Virus record (IMG/VR): IMGVR_UViG_3300021375_000095
Coordinates: 1-33,914 of that record
Direction: 5' to 3' (one strand)
Source of the DNA: a virus
Length of the DNA: 33,914 nucleotides
The position numbers and the translations under genes are program-made. Shown here one piece after another: positions 165 through 33,914 of the stretch (its first letter is position 1; each line of letters starts with the position of its first letter). The notes under the pieces were generated by a model. The model was not told where the DNA came from. It ran no database searches and was given only the letters and a program-made list of their open reading frames with translations.

Positions 165-236
165 TGTATTTATATTTCTATGCTTACGAAACAAATGTTG
201 ATTATCTTTAAAAAAGCTTATAAAAATATCATACAT
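1..236 (-). CDS. Cys-His-Asp (papain/NlpC-like) phage protein, N-terminal part; continues across the circle junction
   Basis: The ATG at 236 overlaps the stop of the PLP-enzyme gene (ATGtaTGA) and the frame runs off the window start. Continued from 33750 it ends at 33462, giving one 174-residue protein. Visible features of the joined protein are GYC (Cys48), THW (His87) and IIDL (Asp100) followed by a QF-type segment. That is the C-H-D order of papain-fold thiol proteins, and it resembles a phage family with a G-x-C...HW...D-x-T-x-x-QF pattern. No signal peptide or membrane segment is seen, so it is probably cytoplasmic. Substrate is unknown; proteolysis, amidase or amide ligation are all possible. 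Its position between the PLP enzyme and the TS-like gene suggests a role in the same pathway. This copy encodes Ala at residue 67, the right-hand copy Glu. Confidence 0.8.
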   Translation of the reverse strand, partial: MYDIFISFFKDNQHLFRKHRNINTGQNHADNITELKLVYNVQFPFGYCFPISQFMFYYLGGYGSDYALRCIRGIPISI

Positions 237-1125
237 AATTAAAATCTTTTAAATCATTCCAATCTCTATAAGAATCTATAGTCTGTTTATCTATTGTTGG
301 TTTATTAGCATTTCCTGCTACATTAAAAAACCAATCACCTTTTCTACCATATTTAACCATGTAGTCCCAACCTTTCGCATCGTATGAATCTTCACTATTA
401 AAACCTATAGGAATTAAATCAGACTTAGAATTAAATGGTTTGTGATAAGAATAAAAATCAGATCTACCTAATTCTCCTTGTTGTATATTTCTAGCTACTG
501 CAACTGCTCTAAATTTAGTATCAGGTAAAGCTATCTGTAAAGTCCTTGTTAAAACGCCAGTAGATATAACTGACCAAATAGTATTTGGTTTAACTCTATT
601 TTTAAAATAATCATAAACACATCTTACTCCTCCAGCAATTACTAAAGGATGATTTAAACCTAAAGGTACATAATAAGAGTTAGTTGCTTTAGCATATTTT
701 TTTGCTAAAGAGTTAGCATTAGGCATGGCTGCTATTCTAGCAAACAATGGCTTAGCTCCTAATTCTATACATAAAGCTTGGTGATCACTTATCTCTTTTG
801 AAGATGGCATTACTAAAGTTAAATTTAAATTATACTTTTTACATAACCATGAAAGAGAAATACCAGCAAAACCTCTTCTTGGTTGTACGTAAACTATTTC
901 TTTAACACCTTGATTAGCAATATGCTGTATAAAGTACTCACCGCTTCTAGCTTTATAACCCACCTCGCAAGATACAGATTCATCTATTATATTAAATCCA
1001 TCTACTTGTTTTATATTAAATTCATTAAAAGATGACTTAAAGTTTTTAGTTTGTTCTAAATAATCGTTAAGACTATAATCTTTTAAATCATTATTAGCTT
1101 TTGTACTCTGTTTATTTAAGAACAT
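229..1125 (-). CDS. PLP-dependent fold type II enzyme (cysteine desulfhydrase/ACC deaminase/TrpB-like)
   Basis: 298 residues. The layout is that of a fold-type II pyridoxal-phosphate enzyme. GYKARSGEYF at about 56-65 supplies a candidate Schiff-base lysine (Lys58). Next comes a QPRRGFAGISLSWLC helix start at 81-95, like the segment after the lysine in this fold, then LTLVMPSSK and ELGAKPLF. A phosphate-binding turn at about 188-195 (STGVLTRT) precedes KFRAVAV. The reaction cannot be read from sequence: beta-elimination or replacement, deamination or transamination are possible. It overlaps the upstream glycosylase-fold gene by 14 bp and the downstream thiol-protein gene by 8 bp, so they are probably co-translated. 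PLP enzymes take part in thymidine hypermodification in phages such as ViI, and the neighbours fit such a role, but this is inference. Confidence 0.72.
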   Translation of the reverse strand: MFLNKQSTKANNDLKDYSLNDYLEQTKNFKSSFNEFNIKQVDGFNIIDESVSCEVGYKARSGEYFIQHIANQGVKEIVYVQPRRGFAGISLSWLCKKYNLNLTLVMPSSKEISDHQALCIELGAKPLFARIAAMPNANSLAKKYAKATNSYYVPLGLNHPLVIAGGVRCVYDYFKNRVKPNTIWSVISTGVLTRTLQIALPDTKFRAVAVARNIQQGELGRSDFYSYHKPFNSKSDLIPIGFNSEDSYDAKGWDYMVKYGRKGDWFFNVAGNANKPTIDKQTIDSYRDWNDLKDFNYV

Positions 1126-2005
1126 TATTCCAGTATTTAATATTATTATTTTTTATTATATGATGATCACTTTGAAAATTATCTATATATCTAATAAAAT
1201 CACAAGCAACATCCTCCATATCATAAGGCTTAGAGTAGTTTCCAGTTATTTCACAAAGATATCGTAAAGCTTTATTTTTATTCATCTTAGGTAATATCAT
1301 CTTTAAACATTTAGACGCGTTAGAACCTACGTATACATCACTGTCTTGGTCTACAAGATCAGGATAATACTCAGCTAAATCCATAGCAAAAGCAGTTAAA
1401 ACAAAATTTTGTCTTTTAAAACCTCTTGATCTTAGCCAATGATTTCCTAAATCAACTACATCAGTTATAGAGTAGCCACCTTGTTGTACTTCATTCATTA
1501 TATCGTCAACTAAATTTAAAGAGTCTTCTACTATAAAATTCCTTAATCCTTTTTTTATCATAGGTAATAAATAACCTTTAACATCACAAAAACCTTTATC
1601 TGGTATATTATTAACCCAATCAACAATATCATATCTTTTTAATACTAACTCTTGTACAATCCAAAAGTTTCCAAAACCATGACTCCCGTAAGGTAAAAGG
1701 TCTTTTGGTCTATAGTTAATACCTGATCCGCATAGTCTAAACAAGTAAGATAAGTAAATAAAATTATCTTTGTTTATTTTATGATCTTTAAAGTAGTTTC
1801 CATTGCCTTTAGGATCTAATTCTTTTTTGTCTATTGCTTCTAACAAACTACTAAAAGCTGCATACTTTCTATTTACAACATCATATATAGGTACATGCCA
1901 AACTAAATCATCATTAATATCTTCTTTTGTCCAATTAAAGCCTTGATATAATCTTTGTTGATTCATTTTAGCTTTATTATAGTAATCTTTGAATTGCTCT
2001 AACAT
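1112..2005 (-). CDS. DNA-glycosylase-fold protein, aGPT-PPlase / HMUDK-helical-like (putative base hypermodification)
   Basis: 297 residues, alpha-helical, soluble. The N-terminal part has an NQQR...FNWTKEDI...IYDVVNR pattern (15-46) reminiscent of the helical domain of 5-hydroxymethyluracil DNA kinases. Then come FRLCGSGINY (89-98), a GSHGFGNF block (107-114), KGLRNF, and near the C-terminus DLAEYYPDLVD followed by VYVGSNASKCL. Gly-rich and HG-F/Y-x-N blocks like these are what I recall from the alpha-glutamyl/putrescinyl thymidine pyrophosphorylase (aGPT-PPlase) families, which share a DNA-glycosylase-like helical fold and add an amino acid or polyamine to activated 5-hydroxymethyl pyrimidines. 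No P-loop is visible, so it is not itself a kinase. The exact clade needs a profile search; the alternative is an uncharacterised helical phage protein. Confidence 0.5.
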   Translation of the reverse strand: MLEQFKDYYNKAKMNQQRLYQGFNWTKEDINDDLVWHVPIYDVVNRKYAAFSSLLEAIDKKELDPKGNGNYFKDHKINKDNFIYLSYLFRLCGSGINYRPKDLLPYGSHGFGNFWIVQELVLKRYDIVDWVNNIPDKGFCDVKGYLLPMIKKGLRNFIVEDSLNLVDDIMNEVQQGGYSITDVVDLGNHWLRSRGFKRQNFVLTAFAMDLAEYYPDLVDQDSDVYVGSNASKCLKMILPKMNKNKALRYLCEITGNYSKPYDMEDVACDFIRYIDNFQSDHHIIKNNNIKYWNNVLK

Positions 2006-2916
2006 AACTGATCTATATATTTATATGACTTTGGTTTTAAATGTACGGATTGTCTTGATTCCATATCATCAAAAGATAATCCATTTTCATAATCTAAATC
2101 CCATTCTATTAAATTATAACCATAATGTAAACAACCTCTTTTTAATAGTTTATTAAACTCATTTACATAATATAATCTATCTAATTGACTACCGAAAAAA
2201 GGTTTGTCTTTATACAGTCCCGTACCTGGTATCTTTCTTGATTCATCTTCTATAGGTAATAAACAAACTAAAGTTATTTTATCTAAATACAATTTTCCTA
2301 GTTGCTCAAACAATTTTCTAATTAAATCAACTACTGCTTTTCTACCACCAAAACGATGTACATGAAATCTCATGTCTATGTTACCTGCATAAAATATAAG
2401 TTCTTTTACATTATCTTTTAAATACTTGTTTAAACCTATTTTTAAAAAACCATTTAATGTTTTACCATCATGTCTATCTATAGCGTAGCCATGTTTAAAT
2501 ATCGATACACTATGGCTATCTCCTAATATTAGTTTTGATGACACATCTTTAGTGTATATAATTTTAGGAATTTTATTACATGATAAACCTTTTAACTCTT
2601 TACGTTTATTACATACAACATTATAGTCTATCATTTCATTTATGCAAAACACATTACCATTATAATTGTTTAGCTTATCTAGTCTAGTATAAAAACCTTC
2701 TTGTACTCCACCAAAAAAATTAAACTTTCCTTCTTTATAATTAACTCCTTCGGATAAAATAATCTCATTGTATTGATTCCAATCGTCTTTTTCTGTAATT
2801 ATATCAGCATTAAACATACTCTTTAAAACAAGAGTCCAACCACCATTGTGACTATTTAAACTTTTAACCGGGTTACTAACTACACCTACTATTGCTCTAT
2901 CTTTTTTCATTTTCAT
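1999..2916 (-). CDS. SGNH/GDSL-hydrolase-like protein
   Basis: 305 residues. LILGDSHS at 129-136 is a GDS(H) block I with candidate nucleophile Ser134. FYAGNIDMRFH at about 175-185 gives the G-x-N oxyanion block, and a D...VH pair near the C-terminus (around 284-291, DDMESRQSVH) could supply the Asp/His. This order is that of SGNH-fold esterases, hydrolases and acyltransferases, although the GDS block starts unusually late, after an N-terminal domain of about 125 residues with its own hydrophobic strands. No signal peptide, so probably cytoplasmic. ATG at 2916 or 2910 are both possible starts. Its place before the glycosylase-fold and PLP genes suggests adding or removing an acyl or sugar group on small molecules or DNA, which is inference. 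Confidence 0.6.
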   Translation of the reverse strand: MKMKKDRAIVGVVSNPVKSLNSHNGGWTLVLKSMFNADIITEKDDWNQYNEIILSEGVNYKEGKFNFFGGVQEGFYTRLDKLNNYNGNVFCINEMIDYNVVCNKRKELKGLSCNKIPKIIYTKDVSSKLILGDSHSVSIFKHGYAIDRHDGKTLNGFLKIGLNKYLKDNVKELIFYAGNIDMRFHVHRFGGRKAVVDLIRKLFEQLGKLYLDKITLVCLLPIEDESRKIPGTGLYKDKPFFGSQLDRLYYVNEFNKLLKRGCLHYGYNLIEWDLDYENGLSFDDMESRQSVHLKPKSYKYIDQLC

Positions 2917-3163
2917 ATTTATTTAAAGCAGCTAAATATGCTACTGCATCTAGTAAATTATCTTCTTTGTGATTATATGACTCTCGTGATAGTTTAAGAG
3001 CTACCATAGCCATATACATATCTTTAGCAGTTAAATCTTTACCAGTACAAGCTGATGCAATTTTAGCTGCACGTTCCATACCTTTTGAAAAAGGGCCATA
3101 TAATCTTTCTTTTTCTTGTGAACGTTCGTTAATTATTTTATTAGCTTCATCTAAAATATTCAT
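2897..3163 (-). CDS. DUF6378-like small helical phage protein
   Basis: 88 residues. The core RSQEKERLYGPFSKGMERAA, then TGKDLTAKDMYMAMVALKLSR and DNLLDAVAYLAAL, matches a widespread small phage family (DUF6378 as I recall it) of unknown biochemical function, often near nucleotide-metabolism genes. It is all-helical and acidic-to-neutral with no membrane segment. The start ATG at 3163 overlaps the stop of the preceding 47-residue gene (ATGA). The end overlaps the SGNH-like gene by 20 bp. Confidence 0.65.
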   Translation of the reverse strand: MNILDEANKIINERSQEKERLYGPFSKGMERAAKIASACTGKDLTAKDMYMAMVALKLSRESYNHKEDNLLDAVAYLAALNKYENEKR

Positions 3164-4822: not shown

Positions 4823-5727
4823 AATACTAATTTTTTATTTTCTTTACTTTCTAAAATATCTCTATTCATAAATTCAAAACCTGTATTATTAATTTTCATT
4901 TTTAATCTTATTGGTTCTTCATGAGGTGTTGGCCTGCCGCCAGTTTCATTCTCTTTAACTTTTAATACGTATAAATTACTATACATCCATTCACTTGAAT
5001 GGCTAGTATATCTATGTATACAAATTACATCATCAGCTCGATTACCCCATTTACCTCCACCCTCTACATCAGCCATCGATAAAGGTTTAGATAAATTTGC
5101 ATATTCATGATTTGCAGGATGTGTTCTTCTTAAAGCTTCAGTAACTCCGTGTGCATTTAAATATATAGTTATATTATTTTTTTTAGCAAACATTCTAAAT
5201 TCTGATGCAACTTGATAATCGTACTCGTGTCCTCCTACTACTTTTAGTAAAGAATAGTCTTTAGATAAACTATTGTAAGGGTCAACTAATAAAGCGTTAT
5301 AATCCCAAGCCTGTTTAATTGCTTCAGCCTCTTTAATTAATTGTTGATAATTATATAAGTCGTCTACATCTATAATTTTAAAATGGTTATCACACCAACT
5401 CATTGATTCTGTTATTTCTGTTTCAGATGCTTTTTGTATAGGTTTACCCATTTTAAACTCTATAATTTTTCTAACAATACTTTGTGGTGTATTTTCGCTA
5501 GACCAAATTAAAAATCTTAAATTATGCTTTAAAGCCCAAACAACAAACAAATAACATATAATCGAAGTCTTGCCAGTATTAGCATGGCCAATCAGTAAAT
5601 TAAAGTTGCCCTGCTTGTATCTAAGATACTCATCAATACCTTGTATGCCTATACCAAGACCTTCTTTTACTCTACCATATTTAACATCAAGTATTTTATT
5701 TTTTATAGCTGCATATTGTGCTATCAT
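4819..5727 (-). CDS. DnaB-like / RecA-fold replicative helicase ATPase
   Basis: 302 residues. Walker A GHANTGKT at 47-54 is followed by FLIWSSENTP (72-81) and Walker B ALLVDPYNS with Asp149. NITIYLNAHGVTEALRRTHP holds a motif-3-like histidine, and GGGKWGNRADDVICIHRY near 225-242 resembles the C-terminal motif of hexameric DnaB/Twinkle helicases. The protein corresponds to the C-terminal ATPase domain only, with no DnaB N-terminal domain and no primase. It would act at the replication fork or as a loader-type ATPase. The DUF3127, ERF and NinG genes lie upstream in the same transcription unit. The family is clear; replicative helicase rather than a RepA-like or recombinase ATPase is likely but unproven. 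Confidence 0.75.
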   Translation of the reverse strand: MIAQYAAIKNKILDVKYGRVKEGLGIGIQGIDEYLRYKQGNFNLLIGHANTGKTSIICYLFVVWALKHNLRFLIWSSENTPQSIVRKIIEFKMGKPIQKASETEITESMSWCDNHFKIIDVDDLYNYQQLIKEAEAIKQAWDYNALLVDPYNSLSKDYSLLKVVGGHEYDYQVASEFRMFAKKNNITIYLNAHGVTEALRRTHPANHEYANLSKPLSMADVEGGGKWGNRADDVICIHRYTSHSSEWMYSNLYVLKVKENETGGRPTPHEEPIRLKMKINNTGFEFMNRDILESKENKKLVF

Positions 5728-5865
5728 CTTTTGTGGTATTTTCTTGCTACTTTATCGTTCTGTTCTTTACGTAGTTGTGGTTCTATATAATAACCTACAA
5801 TTGGATTAATATTGTAATTCCAAAAATCGTAAGGTACTTTTTCACCATCTTTTAATTTTCTCATT
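5724..5865 (-). pseudogene. small gene with an apparent one-base frameshift
   Basis: From ATG 5865 the frame reads MRKLKDGEKVPYDFW and then stops four codons later. Skipping one G of the GGG at 5820-5822 moves into a frame reading NYNINPIVGYYIEPQLRKEQ and onward to RKYHKR, whose TGA overlaps the helicase ATG (ATGA), as in intact genes here. The total of 142 nt equals 47 codons plus one base. The two halves together look like one natural 46-residue protein. Explanations are an assembly indel in tttttggg, a real mutation, or translational frameshifting. No function is known. Confidence 0.45.
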
Positions 5866-5888
5866 AAATATAAACAACTTAAATATCA

Positions 5889-6224
5889 TTAAAAATCAAT
5901 TAAATCTTTTTGTCGATCTGGCTGATGATCGTTGTTAGTTATTTCATTTAGTCCTTTTGATATTTTCCAACCTTGAATAGAATTAAAGTATTTCGTTTGT
6001 CCTTCAGGATTAACCCATTCTCTACCTTTTACATTAATATTTATAGTAGCTTCATCTCCTTTATTATACATACTTAATTGATCTATTGATTTATTTATAA
6101 ATTCAATTAATATTGTTTGTGGATAATCTGAATTGTGATCTGTTTTTAAAACAAGTTCTACTTTGTTAGTTTTACCAAAAGTTTTTTGTTCTCCTATTTT
6201 TAATATAATTCCTTTTAATTGCAT
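5889..6224 (-). CDS. DUF3127-family OB-fold single-stranded-DNA-binding-like protein
   Basis: 111 residues. The pattern YNKGDEATININVKGREW followed by KYFNSIQGWKI is characteristic of DUF3127 proteins, which are largely from Bacteroidota and predicted to be OB-fold. The C-terminus ends DLIDF, an acidic tip like the SSB tail that recruits replication proteins. It sits directly after the ERF annealing gene (4-nt gap) and upstream of the helicase, so it probably coats single-stranded DNA during replication and recombination. The family call is strong; DNA binding is inferred from context and tail. Confidence 0.75.
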   Translation of the reverse strand: MQLKGIILKIGEQKTFGKTNKVELVLKTDHNSDYPQTILIEFINKSIDQLSMYNKGDEATININVKGREWVNPEGQTKYFNSIQGWKISKGLNEITNNDHQPDRQKDLIDF

Positions 6225-6989: not shown

Positions 6990-7373
6990 CTAAAGAAATG
7001 CTTTTAATTTATTATTATATAAATTTATTAATTCTTGGAGTTCTAAACTTGTAAATTTAACTATACTTTTACTTAAATTATATAATAACTCTGATTCTTT
7101 AAAACCTAGTGCTTGAGAAAATTTATATTGCTCACCATATCTAAAAACATTGCATGCTAAACATTGTGGCTTTACATTACGTTCATCCCATCTAATACTA
7201 TAATGTTTTCTACTCATAAAGTGGCCTGCTTGAATTTCTTTCCAAAAAAAAGTTTTATTACAAGTTACACATTTACAATTACCATTTTCATCTGCATTAC
7301 TTAATCTTATATATTGGCTAAAAACAGTATCAAGTTTTTTTACAAGTTTACTTCTTGTAAGTTTTTTAGGCAC
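6990..7373 (-). CDS. ninG: NinG/Rap-like recombination protein (HNH-like, zinc-binding)
   Basis: 127 residues. LDTVFSQYIRLSNADENGNC, a C-x-x-C pair (VTCNK region), EIQAGHFMSRKHYSIRWDER and NVKPQCLACN follow lambda NinG (Rap) in order. The GHF...W-x-x-x-N...C-x-x-C arrangement is an HNH-like fold with a zinc site. Lambda Rap is a structure-specific endonuclease acting on recombination intermediates. It overlaps the preceding 102-aa gene by 8 bp. The length is shorter than lambda NinG, as in many phage homologues. Confidence 0.83.
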   Translation of the reverse strand: MPKKLTRSKLVKKLDTVFSQYIRLSNADENGNCKCVTCNKTFFWKEIQAGHFMSRKHYSIRWDERNVKPQCLACNVFRYGEQYKFSQALGFKESELLYNLSKSIVKFTSLELQELINLYNNKLKAFL

Positions 7374-7674
7374 TTGTTAAATCTTTTTCATTCATGTGTG
7401 CTTCTAATATATAACCATCTAAAGGACTTATAACAGATATAGCTTTATATATTTTTCTACTAATAGCTTTTACTTTTTTCTTCTCTGTAGTTGTTGAATC
7501 AATACCTAAATTAGTATACATAAAAGCATCTTCTTGTAGTAGTTCATCTACTTTTCTTTTTATACTCCAAGTTTTGTAACCTTGTATTTTTCTAATTTTA
7601 TCATCTGTAATCATAGTATGATTTTTAATTACATTCCCACTACCCACCAAATTTACAATCTTTTTTAATAACAT
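7366..7674 (-). CDS. unknown phage protein (KIRKIQGYKTWS type)
   Basis: 102 residues from the ATG at 7674; an internal ATG (MITDDKIRKIQGYKTWS) at residue 21 is an equally possible start and begins the better-looking part. The pattern IRKIQGYKTWSIKRKVDELL, then YTNLGIDSTTTEKK and SRKIYKAI, recalls a recurrent marine phage family of unknown function. Soluble and basic. It overlaps ninG by 8 bp, so a shared role in recombination or replication is possible but not shown. Confidence 0.65.
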   Translation of the reverse strand: MLLKKIVNLVGSGNVIKNHTMITDDKIRKIQGYKTWSIKRKVDELLQEDAFMYTNLGIDSTTTEKKKVKAISRKIYKAISVISPLDGYILEAHMNEKDLTSA

Positions 7675-7704
7675 GTAAAGTTTTAATGCTATTAGTTTTT
7701 AACA

Positions 7705-31498: not shown

Positions 31499-32531
31499 GT
31501 GTACCAGTTACTACATATTCATTTATCTCTTCTGTTCTATCAATAAAGTAATTTTGAAATACTTTTAAACCATATTCAACTTTATCTTTACCAGAATTAT
31601 AAAAACTTTCTTTTACATCATATATTCCTAAATCTCCTGATCCTTTATCAATAACAAAAAATTTAAAATCTTTATAATCTACTTTAAATAAATTACAATA
31701 TATGTATACTTGAACATCATAACCAAACTTTTTAGCAGCCCATTTAAATCCTTTAATATCACTAGTAGTTTTTAAGTCTGCTATATAATCAAATCCTAAT
31801 ACATCTGCTTTAGCTCTGAAAGGAAAACCATTTAATATATCAAAACCAGGTACTTCAAATTTTGCGCCTCTTGTTAGCTCTTGCCAAACATTATTTTGTA
31901 ATAAAGCGTCTGCAGTATACATAGCTTTATCATATTCTTTACGAGTAAAAACAAATTGTGCACTTCCTACTTCAGCTACTTTATCTTTAAACTTTTTTGT
32001 TACTGCTGATTGTACCTCAACAACGTGACATAAACTATCTAATTTTTCTGGCTCTAATGCTGCTAAGTGAATTAGTCTACCTATTTTAAATGCTCCTGTA
32101 TCTGATTTAAAGTTTAATGACCTTTGATAGCTCTTAGGTGAATCTATTAATTGTTTTATAGCTGAGCTACTTAAAGCATATTTACCTAACTCTCCGTAAT
32201 AAAAACTATCGCTATACATCTTTTTAATTAGCTCATCCTTATCCCATACTTTACCATTTAGTAGTTCTATCTTTTCCATTCTTTCTTTGCTTTTTACGTG
32301 TACTGATTTCATTTCATCTGGCGATATATAACATGTATCAGATCCTAAGTTCATAGTAGGGTTTATACTATACCTTAAAGCTTCTAACTCTTGTTGTGAT
32401 TCAAACTTATAACTTTTATCAGATATTTTAATATTTATACCGCCATGCTTAATTGCCCAATCTAAAAAATTTAACTTAGTTGTTCTAAATGTGATATTTT
32501 TCCAATTAGGATGCTTTACTACGTCTTTCAT
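31491..32531 (-). CDS. RecE-like PD-(D/E)XK exonuclease (DUF3799-type)
   Basis: 346 residues. The nuclease half starts at about 109 (SFYYGELGKYALSSSAIKQL), has GRLIHLAALEPEKLDS (His155), then ADVLGFDYIADLKTT with Asp243 and Asp252-x-Lys254, and Q274-x-x-x-Y. This is the PD-(D/E)XK order of RecE/lambda-exo-like proteins: a 5'-3' dsDNA exonuclease. The N-terminal 100 residues are extra. It probably pairs with the ERF annealing protein at 6229-6750. Confidence 0.77.
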   Translation of the reverse strand: MKDVVKHPNWKNITFRTTKLNFLDWAIKHGGINIKISDKSYKFESQQELEALRYSINPTMNLGSDTCYISPDEMKSVHVKSKERMEKIELLNGKVWDKDELIKKMYSDSFYYGELGKYALSSSAIKQLIDSPKSYQRSLNFKSDTGAFKIGRLIHLAALEPEKLDSLCHVVEVQSAVTKKFKDKVAEVGSAQFVFTRKEYDKAMYTADALLQNNVWQELTRGAKFEVPGFDILNGFPFRAKADVLGFDYIADLKTTSDIKGFKWAAKKFGYDVQVYIYCNLFKVDYKDFKFFVIDKGSGDLGIYDVKESFYNSGKDKVEYGLKVFQNYFIDRTEEINEYVVTGTLE

Positions 32532-32833
32532 TATTTATCTTTTATAAATGTTCCATTTTCCATTTTACCCTTACGGTTTTTTATTTCATGATAAGCTGAT
32601 TCTATACAAGTTTCAATACTTAGATTACATAATCTAGCTAAGTTTGTTAATACAACTACCATATCTCCTATAGCATCTTCTATTTCAATCTTATCTTTAT
32701 TAAGTATTGCTTGTGATAATTCGCCAGCCTCTTCCATTAATTTAAGGTATTGTGTCTTAGGATCTCCTTTTTGATATATACCTCTTTGATCAGCCCATTG
32801 TCTAATAGGCTCAAACTCGTTATTTAATCTCAT
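32531..32833 (-). CDS. MazG-like nucleotide pyrophosphohydrolase
   Basis: 100 residues. The LMEEAGELSQAIL helix (E34, E35, E38) and EIEDAIGDMVVVL (Asp53, Asp57) are the all-alpha NTP-PPase metal motif. It would hydrolyse (d)NTPs to NMP and pyrophosphate. Its start lies in an ATGA overlap with the TS-like gene and its stop in a TAATG overlap with the nuclease gene. Removing an unmodified dNTP, like T4 gp56 does, is an attractive inference given the neighbours. Confidence 0.82.
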   Translation of the reverse strand: MRLNNEFEPIRQWADQRGIYQKGDPKTQYLKLMEEAGELSQAILNKDKIEIEDAIGDMVVVLTNLARLCNLSIETCIESAYHEIKNRKGKMENGTFIKDK

Positions 32834-33465
32834 GTTTTTTTATTTAAAAAATTATTATATAAATGTAAATTATGTGCAAAATGATAATAAGTTCCTAATG
32901 GTAATTTTAATTGAGTTGCTACTAAATTATGTAAATTACTAAAACAATATTGGTCATTACAAAATCCATACCATAAATCATTTGATCTCATTAAAATAGA
33001 CATATGTAGTTTATTATTATAAATACTAAATTGTATAGCATAAGTACAAGGTGTATCTTTACTATATGTGTCTATTTCTTTACCATCATATATTGAAATA
33101 GTAGCCTGTCTAGTATTATTATCACTTTTTAGCTTATCTATAACTTTTATTATTTGATTGTTCCTATTCCACTGCCAACCATAATTAGATCTAACATTAC
33201 CTTTTTCATCCATCATTGATTTCCATATAGGAGCATAGTTAGATATTTCTTCTGCATTTGGATCTCCTTCTAAATACCATTGCCATTCTCTTTGTGCATA
33301 TTTACTTGAAAAATTACGCCATTTAGTATTTATAATATTATCTTTAGGGTTTAAAATAGTAAAACCTATATTAAATAAAGCTTTCGTTCCAGCAAAGTCT
33401 ATTCCTTCTTTTATTATATAATCGTAATAATATTCAAAAGCCGATTGTGCGTTAGAAAAAGTCAT
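32830..33465 (-). CDS. thymidylate synthase family enzyme; probable deoxycytidylate (or dUMP) hydroxymethylase
   Basis: 211 residues, shorter than ThyA (264) because the C-terminal ~55 residues are absent. Key parts: EWQWYLEGDPN (dNMP-binding helix), TPCTY with catalytic Cys140, MRSNDLWYG with Arg160 and Asp163, and H201-L-Y203. From PC to HLY it aligns without gaps to E. coli ThyA as I remember it, and places Asp171 at ThyA Asn177, the base-reading residue. Asn-to-Asp is the hallmark of T4 dCMP hydroxymethylase. So a dCMP hydroxymethylase is likeliest; plain TS or dUMP hydroxymethylase cannot be excluded. Confidence 0.75.
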   Translation of the reverse strand: MTFSNAQSAFEYYYDYIIKEGIDFAGTKALFNIGFTILNPKDNIINTKWRNFSSKYAQREWQWYLEGDPNAEEISNYAPIWKSMMDEKGNVRSNYGWQWNRNNQIIKVIDKLKSDNNTRQATISIYDGKEIDTYSKDTPCTYAIQFSIYNNKLHMSILMRSNDLWYGFCNDQYCFSNLHNLVATQLKLPLGTYYHFAHNLHLYNNFLNKKT

Positions 33466-33914
33466 AATGATTTATACTCTTTTAAATAAAACTCTAATGT
33501 TTTCGATTGTGAATTTAAATAAATTTTTCTAAACTGTTCATATAATTTTAATACAGTTTTAGATGGTACAGTGTTTTTATACCTTTTACCTCCTTTTTTT
33601 AAATAAGGGAAACCGAAATTAGCTTTTCTACCTTTTTTATAATACTTGTCTATATCTAATATTTTTTCAAACTGTTCTTTAGATAAATCTATTATTTCTG
33701 CTGTCAACTTATTTATAACAAACCAATGAGTTGTCATGTGTTTACATCCTTTTATACTTATAGGTATACCTCTTATACATCTTAGCTCATAGTCTGATCC
33801 ATATCCTCCTAAGTAATAAAACATAAATTGACTTATTGGAAAACAATAACCAAAAGGAAATTGTACGTTGTAAACTAATTTTAACTCAGTTATATTATCA
33901 GCATGGTTTTGTCC
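33462..33914 (-). CDS. Cys-His-Asp (papain/NlpC-like) phage protein, C-terminal part reaching the window end
   Basis: The frame is open to the window edge, so the internal ATG at 33824 is not the true start; the gene begins at the equivalent of 236 on the left. This segment includes Cys48, His87, Asp100 of the joined 174-residue protein and the basic end (KGRKANFGFPYLKKGGKRYK). The stop TGA overlaps the TS-like start (ATGA). It carries Glu67 where the left copy carries Ala. Confidence 0.8.
   Translation of the reverse strand, partial: GQNHADNITELKLVYNVQFPFGYCFPISQFMFYYLGGYGSDYELRCIRGIPISIKGCKHMTTHWFVINKLTAEIIDLSKEQFEKILDIDKYYKKGRKANFGFPYLKKGGKRYKNTVPSKTVLKLYEQFRKIYLNSQSKTLEFYLKEYKSL
33751..33914. 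repeat. right copy of 164-bp terminal direct repeat
   Basis: Identical to bases 1-164 save t at 33786 versus g at 36. The difference is a Glu/Ala change in the junction-spanning gene, so the two copies come from different molecules or one has a sequencing error. Confidence 0.93.

Follow-up and report, generated by a model that had tools for sequence, protein, structure and literature searches.

An SGNH, glycosylase-fold and PLP enzyme operon proposed to hypermodify 5-hydroxymethylcytosine in uncultured phages with no P-loop kinase gene found

How might a phage elaborate a hydroxymethylated base in its DNA when no gene for a P-loop hydroxymethyl kinase can be found beside the other modification genes? 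This question is raised by IMG/VR virus record IMGVR_UViG_3300021375_000095, a 33,914-nucleotide stretch analyzed here from end to end (positions 1 to 33,914; the window) that comes from an uncultured, probably marine phage. Two overlapping minus-strand genes are central to it: X (1112-2005), encoding a helical protein of 297 amino acids, and P (229-1125), encoding a pyridoxal phosphate (PLP) enzyme of 298 amino acids. Both reading frames were correctly placed in a first-pass annotation, which read them with a thymidylate synthase (TS)-family hydroxymethylase as a DNA hypermodification cassette resembling those of phages ViI, M6 and SP10. We find that X and P belong to a conserved operon in which X is paired with an SGNH protein and the hydroxymethylase carries a cytosine-type active-site residue, and we propose that this operon acts on 5-hydroxymethylcytosine (5hmC).

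The window begins and ends with a 164-bp repeat (1-164 and 33751-33914, 99.4% identical), and so the record closes into a circle of about 33.75 kb, with a GC content of 30%. Because the record is circular, the operon runs on downstream of P, over the junction, to the TS homologue (32830-33465, minus strand), as the first-pass annotation had supposed. The cassette comprises seven genes in the order DUF6378, SGNH, X, P, an optional small gene, the TS homologue and MazG. All adjacent genes from DUF6378 (2897-3163) to MazG (32531-32833) overlap by 4-20 nt, with 14 nt shared by the P and X reading frames. To collect relatives we scanned IMG/VR with X and with P, which gave 143 loci in total. X and P occur together on one strand in 134 of these, which puts their association far beyond chance. 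Conservation was counted only in loci with enough flanking sequence: P is directly downstream of X in 130/130, and the genes kept on the X strand are DUF6378 (109/109), SGNH (118/118), P (130/130) and the TS homologue (92/92), with MazG present in 63 of 82. Genes outside the cassette, the helicase for example, are kept in only a fraction of the cassette loci. Identity among the relatives falls as low as 44% for X and 46% for P. The gene set first described (P, X and the TS homologue) was thus sound as far as it went, but had missed the SGNH gene along with those of the MazG and DUF6378 types. We give roughly even credence to the idea that the seven genes form one translationally coupled operon for a hypermodified cytosine.

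The base from which such a pathway would start is suggested by the TS homologue, a 211-amino-acid enzyme of the dCMP hydroxymethylase type (PF00303, E 6.9e-26) whose best PDB matches include the CMP 5-hydroxymethylase MilA and the T4 dCMP hydroxymethylase. Aligned with known enzymes, its D171 (codon 32953-32955, minus strand) falls at position 177 of E. coli TS, the cytosine/uracil specificity residue, where an Asn/Asp switch determines whether dUMP or dCMP is used (PMC8670742, PMC5175136). D171 and the catalytic C140 are conserved in 126/126 aligned cassette sequences. T2 gp42 has Asp at this position, and the enzymes of M6, an SPO1-like phage, a Kuttervirus, Rhodoferax phage P26218, ctpVu19 and Acinetobacter phage SH-Ab 15599 have Asn. 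The Asp marks the hydroxymethylase as cytosine-type, and the precursor is likely 5hmC, not 5-hydroxymethyluracil (5hmU), judging from this one residue and from homology. As a separate observation, Bacteroides phage BF503P2 carries a pair of distinct genes of the dCMP-hydroxymethylase type, each with Asp (L222:4115-4921, 6995-7675; L numbers denote our loci), one of which is 51% identical to the TS homologue of the window; X was not found in this phage.

What kind of protein is X? Its AlphaFold2 (AF2) model (predicted local distance difference test [pLDDT] 91.7, predicted template modeling score 0.90) has the helical, DNA-glycosylase-like fold that had been anticipated. Among solved structures compared with VIA-align, the PaMx11 5-phosphomethyldeoxyuridine (5-PmdU) glycinyltransferase, gp46, took ranks 1 and 2 (8z2n and 8z2m, Z 9.7 and 8.9), with further matches to DUF2419 queuosine salvage enzymes (Z 8.7) and AGOG glycosylases (Z 8.3). 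Foldseek against viral models (BFVD) returned, after X's own orthologue, an unnamed phage protein (E 1.3e-10) and ADDT-domain proteins (E 7e-10 and 1e-4); next came proteins named HMUDK_hel (E 0.02-0.03), and then a clear gap to unrelated proteins. An ADDT/HMUDK_hel-like, glycosylase-like fold is therefore well supported for the modeled protein, while the exact sub-family is not.

At the level of sequence, the blocks FRLCGSGINY and HGFGNF, picked out in the first-pass annotation, are invariant or nearly so in 35 diverse relatives of X, and E264-x3-C268 (within EDVACDFIRY; 1202-1216, minus strand) is invariant in the same set. Since E243 and C247 are likewise invariant in the ADDT alignment, we propose that E264-x3-C268 may be the counterpart of ADDT E243-x3-C247 and of the HMUDK_hel CExxKY motif. 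Three blocks, F-x7-D, [AV]G[PS][GN] and C[ED]xx[KR]Y, follow one another at similar spacing in X (F201, D209, G227-N229, C268-Y273) and in HMUDK_hel (F196, D204, G224-G226, C295-Y300), with a weak alignment score between the two. A few cassette-bearing contigs also encode a paralogue of X (L061:4415-5335, L109:760-1755, L110:1043-2038; related to X at E 2e-7), which carries GGPG and a C-terminal NEDKVC...KPRSNY stretch like those of HMUDK_hel. With two paralogues added, hhalign set GSNA...EDVACDFIRY of X on AGPG...ENxLCEFDKY of HMUDK_hel at E 0.0044, and the accepted pair of ADDT and HMUDK_hel, our yardstick, gave E 3e-4 in the same test. We regard this paralogue-aided alignment as suggestive.

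Other searches with X drew blanks. Neither PF18724 (ADDT), searched over the whole window, nor PF18723 (HMUDK_hel) matched it at E <= 10, and hmmsearch of X against the HMUDK_hel and ADDT models gave no separation from decoys. Of the ADDT features, only the C-terminal E-x3-C is common to both; the invariant blocks DxDPxY, GxERRxxR and FGxWxxFKxAD are absent from the X alignment. X had no useful match in sequence searches of Pfam, PHROGs, NCBIfam, PDB sequences, INPHARED phages or GTDB genome contigs. A screen of 84,980 bacterial and archaeal genomes for its conserved motifs turned up no X, and neither did tblastn against cultured phages. A match of X to PHROG 4901 (E 0.14) and matches of four family members to DUF5495 were set aside as weak. 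Because no Pfam profile or hhalign score reaches significance, X cannot be assigned by sequence to ADDT or to HMUDK_hel. The fold foreseen in the earlier label of an aGPT/HMUDK-like protein stands as structural kinship with ADDT/HMUDK_hel, as seen in BFVD and the PDB. The canonical Lys/Asp pair of helix-hairpin-helix (HhH) glycosylases is not visible in X, where a motif alignment puts an invariant Ala205 at the place of the lysine. We propose that X is a base-presenting subunit, and possibly also a transferase.

No kinase-type P-loop gene was found in the window, in agreement with the first-pass annotation: the sole Walker A motifs belong to the terminase and to the DnaB-like helicase, and the window has no match to four phage P-loop kinases taken from ADDT/HMUDK_hel loci. 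Known kinases matched nothing in any X/P locus either, although some of these contigs are incomplete and a kinase could be encoded elsewhere or by the host. In a Microbacterium phage and in PaMx11 a short gene, with a P-loop in the Microbacterium phage, lies directly before the HMUDK_hel gene. The SGNH gene (1999-2916, minus strand) occupies the equivalent place directly upstream of X, and given this and the missing kinase we propose that the SGNH protein and X together form the unit that works on 5hmC. The AF2 model of the SGNH protein (pLDDT 92.3) shows a GDSL fold with an extra N-terminal domain; residues 121-305 match many GDSL esterases at Z 12-15 (typically about 14) and the O-acetyltransferase PatB at Z 12.5. 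Its motifs are GDSHS, GNIDxRxH and SVHxxPxxY. S134, N179 and H292 are invariant, and nearly every member has Gln in place of the Asp that normally precedes the His by three residues. Among cultured phages, relatives of the protein occur in T4-like phages of Aeromonas and Stenotrophomonas and in Tenacibaculum phage PTm1. We propose that this protein is the acyl-transfer or activation partner of X.

The remaining enzyme, P, is a cysteine-synthase-like, fold-type-II PLP enzyme of the PALP family (PF00291, E 3.6e-10, above the curated cut-off; PDB cysteine synthases, E 1.2e-5). K58 (codon 952-954, minus strand) falls opposite the lysine of the SIKDR motif in the alignment with cysteine synthase and is the presumed Schiff-base lysine; neither K58 nor the STGVL loop varies among 31 diverse relatives, which bears out the original reading of P. 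The M6 enzyme is also a PALP protein, but we do not claim a special hypermodification sub-family, as our A2 model missed the M6 enzyme among decoys. Homologues of P in Microcystis phage Mae-JY30 (L224:7375-9693), where the gene comes after two ParB/sulfiredoxin genes, and in Erythrobacter phage vB_EliS_R6L (L223) are annotated as 'DNA modification methylase'. We considered these two phages as a bridge from P to DNA modification and set them aside, since no TS, ADDT or HMUDK_hel match was found there.

For the activity on DNA, the chemistry of the SGNH protein, the order of the steps and the final base, we speculate as follows. The TS homologue would convert dCMP to 5-hydroxymethyl-dCMP, which would enter DNA as 5hmC, while the MazG and DUF6378 enzymes would clear competing dCTP, a division of labor like that of gp42 and gp56 in T4. 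Gene association and fold suggest that X would then flip 5hmC out of the DNA and present the base to the SGNH protein, which would activate or esterify the hydroxymethyl group by acyl transfer, so that the SGNH and helical pair would replace the P-loop kinase and HMUDK_hel pair of thymidine-hypermodifying phages. Finally P, as its PALP family membership suggests, may supply, add or trim an amino-acid-derived group. We consider this whole scheme, hypermodification of 5hmC by the SGNH protein, X and P, about as probable as its negation.

Several observations weigh against the scheme. X falls under every Pfam threshold, and its hhalign scores are not significant against the ADDT alignment (E 0.42), only E 0.038 against HMUDK_hel before the paralogues are added, and E 0.49-0.63, no link at all, against the helical family of Aeromonas phage 44RR2.8t described below. 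The Z-scores of X to PaMx11 gp46, DUF2419 and AGOG lie near each other, and middling Z-scores arise easily among helical proteins, by arrangement alone. SGNH proteins are mostly hydrolases, so a group could be removed instead of added. Furthermore, P has homologues in Microcystis and Erythrobacter phages that have neither TS nor ADDT. In a rival scheme X would itself be an amino-acid:DNA transferase acting on 5hmC phosphorylated by a host kinase or one encoded outside the cassette, with P decarboxylating the added amino acid, as happens in pathways of the M6/ViI type, and the SGNH protein only adding or removing a late ester. The best solved match of X is a glycinyltransferase and its best named BFVD matches are ADDT-domain proteins, the E-x3-C block sits at the ADDT position, and in M6, too, a PALP gene adjoins the ADDT gene. 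The failure to find a P-loop kinase in the window or in any X/P locus, the missing ADDT blocks GxERRxxR and GPWxxFKxAD with the non-significant ADDT score, and an SGNH partner just as obligate as X make us regard this scheme as rather unlikely. The first-pass annotation had drawn on ViI, M6 and SP10, where 5hmU is made and then elaborated to a hypermodified thymine. The characterized ADDT/HMUDK_hel systems considered here all act on 5hmU (PMC6449724), and the gene set is similar. Its hypermodification cassette holds up in the PLP enzyme, the fold and the hydroxymethylase, but a 5hmU precursor does not fit with Asp at position 177 in every one of the 126 TS homologues, the residue of dCMP/CMP hydroxymethylases and not that of the dUMP enzymes which those phages carry. 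Relatives of the SGNH protein, and helical genes of the 44RR type, also co-occur with dCMP hydroxymethylases, and we judge a thymine end product improbable.

A pathway on free nucleotides, in which modified dCTP is made before replication and X handles nucleosides or nucleotides like DUF2419, would account for the MazG-like and DUF6378 proteins, which act on nucleotides, and for a DUF2419 score nearly equal to that of the glycinyltransferase. Against viral models, however, Foldseek ranks ADDT and HMUDK_hel first with a clear gap after them, and the known relatives work on DNA, a point already settled for both PaMx11 gp46 and the 5hmdU DNA kinase, so we give this idea little weight. X could also be an active DNA glycosylase directed at host or rival DNA, with its link to biosynthesis explained by self-protection through a modified base; X does have the HhH-glycosylase fold, and PMC11078745 and PMC13160076 describe anti-phage defence that uses glycosylases against 5hmC DNA. 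With Ala205 invariant where the lysine of the canonical pair would be, and with the obligate SGNH pairing and SGNH-HMUDK_hel-like fusions found elsewhere pointing to a modification complex, we find this last explanation very hard to credit.

Such fusions occur in cultured phages. ORF233c of 44RR2.8t (L230:7998-10385) and its counterpart in UP87 (L239:3920-6337) encode a protein of about 800 amino acids that joins an SGNH domain to a C-terminal, HMUDK_hel-like half, and the gene sits between motA and asiA. PF18723 matches in the 44RR2.8t genome at E 4.1e-4; an hhalign value of E 3e-74 for 44RR against HMUDK_hel was set aside, as the query sequences were within the target alignment. A scan with the C-terminal half returned 60 viral loci, one being 44RR itself, and this family aligns with HMUDK_hel at E 2e-4 in hhalign, with one member passing the HMUDK_hel cut-off (33.1 versus 25 bits). 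In 58 further loci the SGNH protein has its own gene in the neighborhood of the helical gene and on its strand, either close to it or with genes between. The SGNH and helical genes flank further genes in 48 loci (L252-L300, e.g. L282:1537-6197); where typed, these are an inositol-1-phosphate-synthase-like gene (PF01658), a small gene and an FkbM methyltransferase gene (PF05050), a set that would perhaps place a different group on 5hmC. TS homologues near the 44RR-type helical genes have Asp at the specificity position in 21 of 23 cases, as does the gp42 homologue of 44RR. Together this shows that an SGNH protein, a glycosylase-fold helical protein and a dCMP hydroxymethylase are a recurring set beyond the window. 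Since hhalign gives no link, the parallel between X and the 44RR-type family rests on gene association and fold. Phages 44RR, 31 and 25 are reported to have gene 42 and no glucosyltransferase, and what modifies their 5hmC was left open (PMC2993671). None of the open-access literature examined describes ORF233c as serving DNA modification, and we put it forward as a candidate modifier of 5hmC in Aeromonas T4-like phages without glucosyltransferases.

Two other arrangements were seen in cultured phages. Stenotrophomonas phage IME13 (L232:3258-7035) and Aeromonas phage AS-gz (L240:1771-5035) have a lone SGNH homologue near a UDP-galactopyranose mutase gene, a neighbor that may indicate galactofuranose-type decoration of 5hmC. 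In Microbacterium phage Guetzie (Kojivirus, L219:1352-2822, 5077-5883), a P-loop kinase gene is followed by HMUDK_hel, and the TS homologue has Asp at 177; this cultured phage may have a DNA kinase system that acts on 5hmC.

How does the window compare with systems already described? The thymidine systems of M6, PaMx11 and ViI consist of a TS-type dUMP hydroxymethylase, a 5hmdU DNA kinase, HMUDK_hel (PF18723), ADDT (PF18724), a PALP enzyme and a radical SAM protein. Like them, the window has a TS-family hydroxymethylase, a glycosylase-fold helical protein and a PALP enzyme in one cluster, and the X model superposes best on PaMx11 gp46. Unlike them, it has a cytosine-type TS site, an obligate SGNH gene, an X below the family thresholds and no P-loop kinase, and no radical SAM gene was found in it. 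With the T4 5hmC pathway (gp42 dCMP hydroxymethylase, gp56 dCTPase and glucosyltransferases) the window shares the Asp of dCMP hydroxymethylase and nucleotide pyrophosphohydrolases, whereas no glucosyltransferase was identified in it and the SGNH protein, helical protein and PLP enzyme take that place. ORF233c of 44RR2.8t, from a 5hmC-type phage, likewise joins an SGNH homologue (32% identity, E 8e-36) to a broadly similar helical domain, but that domain is nearer to HMUDK_hel than X is, and no PLP enzyme was found in 44RR. The MetaGPA 5-carbamoyloxymethyl-dC system (PMC8670742) also combines a dCMP hydroxymethylase with Asp177, a MazG-like protein (PF01503) and an enzyme that modifies 5hmC, and has a carbamoyltransferase where the window has SGNH, X and the PLP enzyme.

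The outer genes of the cassette, all on the minus strand, are small. The first (2897-3163) encodes an 88-amino-acid DUF6378 protein (PF19905, E 6.6e-13), which may be a small nucleotide pyrophosphohydrolase of the all-alpha type and may serve to reduce dCTP; it has no informative PDB relative, and a dCTPase role gains no support from PDB matches. The last common gene (32531-32833) encodes a MazG-like nucleotide pyrophosphohydrolase (PF03819, E 4.1e-7; PF01503, E 2.9e-5). The optional gene crosses the junction, its 5' part at 3-236 and the rest at 33462-33914 (running from 33750 down to 33462), and its 174-codon frame is joined once the duplicated 164 bp are removed; it has no Pfam match and occurs in only 10 of 134 cassette loci. 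Elsewhere, the window encodes a DUF3127 protein (5889-6224; PF11325, E 2.3e-19), which, together with a Bacteroides phage as the closest cultured TS relative, hints at a Bacteroidota host.

The ADDT/HMUDK_hel fold has so far been tied to hypermodified thymine, and finding it paired with a dCMP hydroxymethylase would carry this chemistry over to cytosine; if our reading is true, it would also be a kinase-free route to activate or decorate the hydroxymethyl group. We tentatively suggest, with somewhat less than even confidence, that a modular hypermodification of cytosine is widespread in viruses, in which an SGNH and glycosylase-fold helical core would act on 5hmC in DNA without a P-loop kinase while donor genes are swapped: the PLP enzyme in the window, the inositol-1-phosphate-synthase-like and FkbM genes in other viruses, and UDP-galactopyranose mutase in IME13 and AS-gz. 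If so, each donor set would give a different, new cytosine modification. For the Aeromonas T4-like phages, ORF233c is a concrete candidate for the question left open in 2010 of what, if anything, modifies their 5hmC (PMC2993671), and because 44RR2.8t grows in the laboratory, the idea is directly testable.

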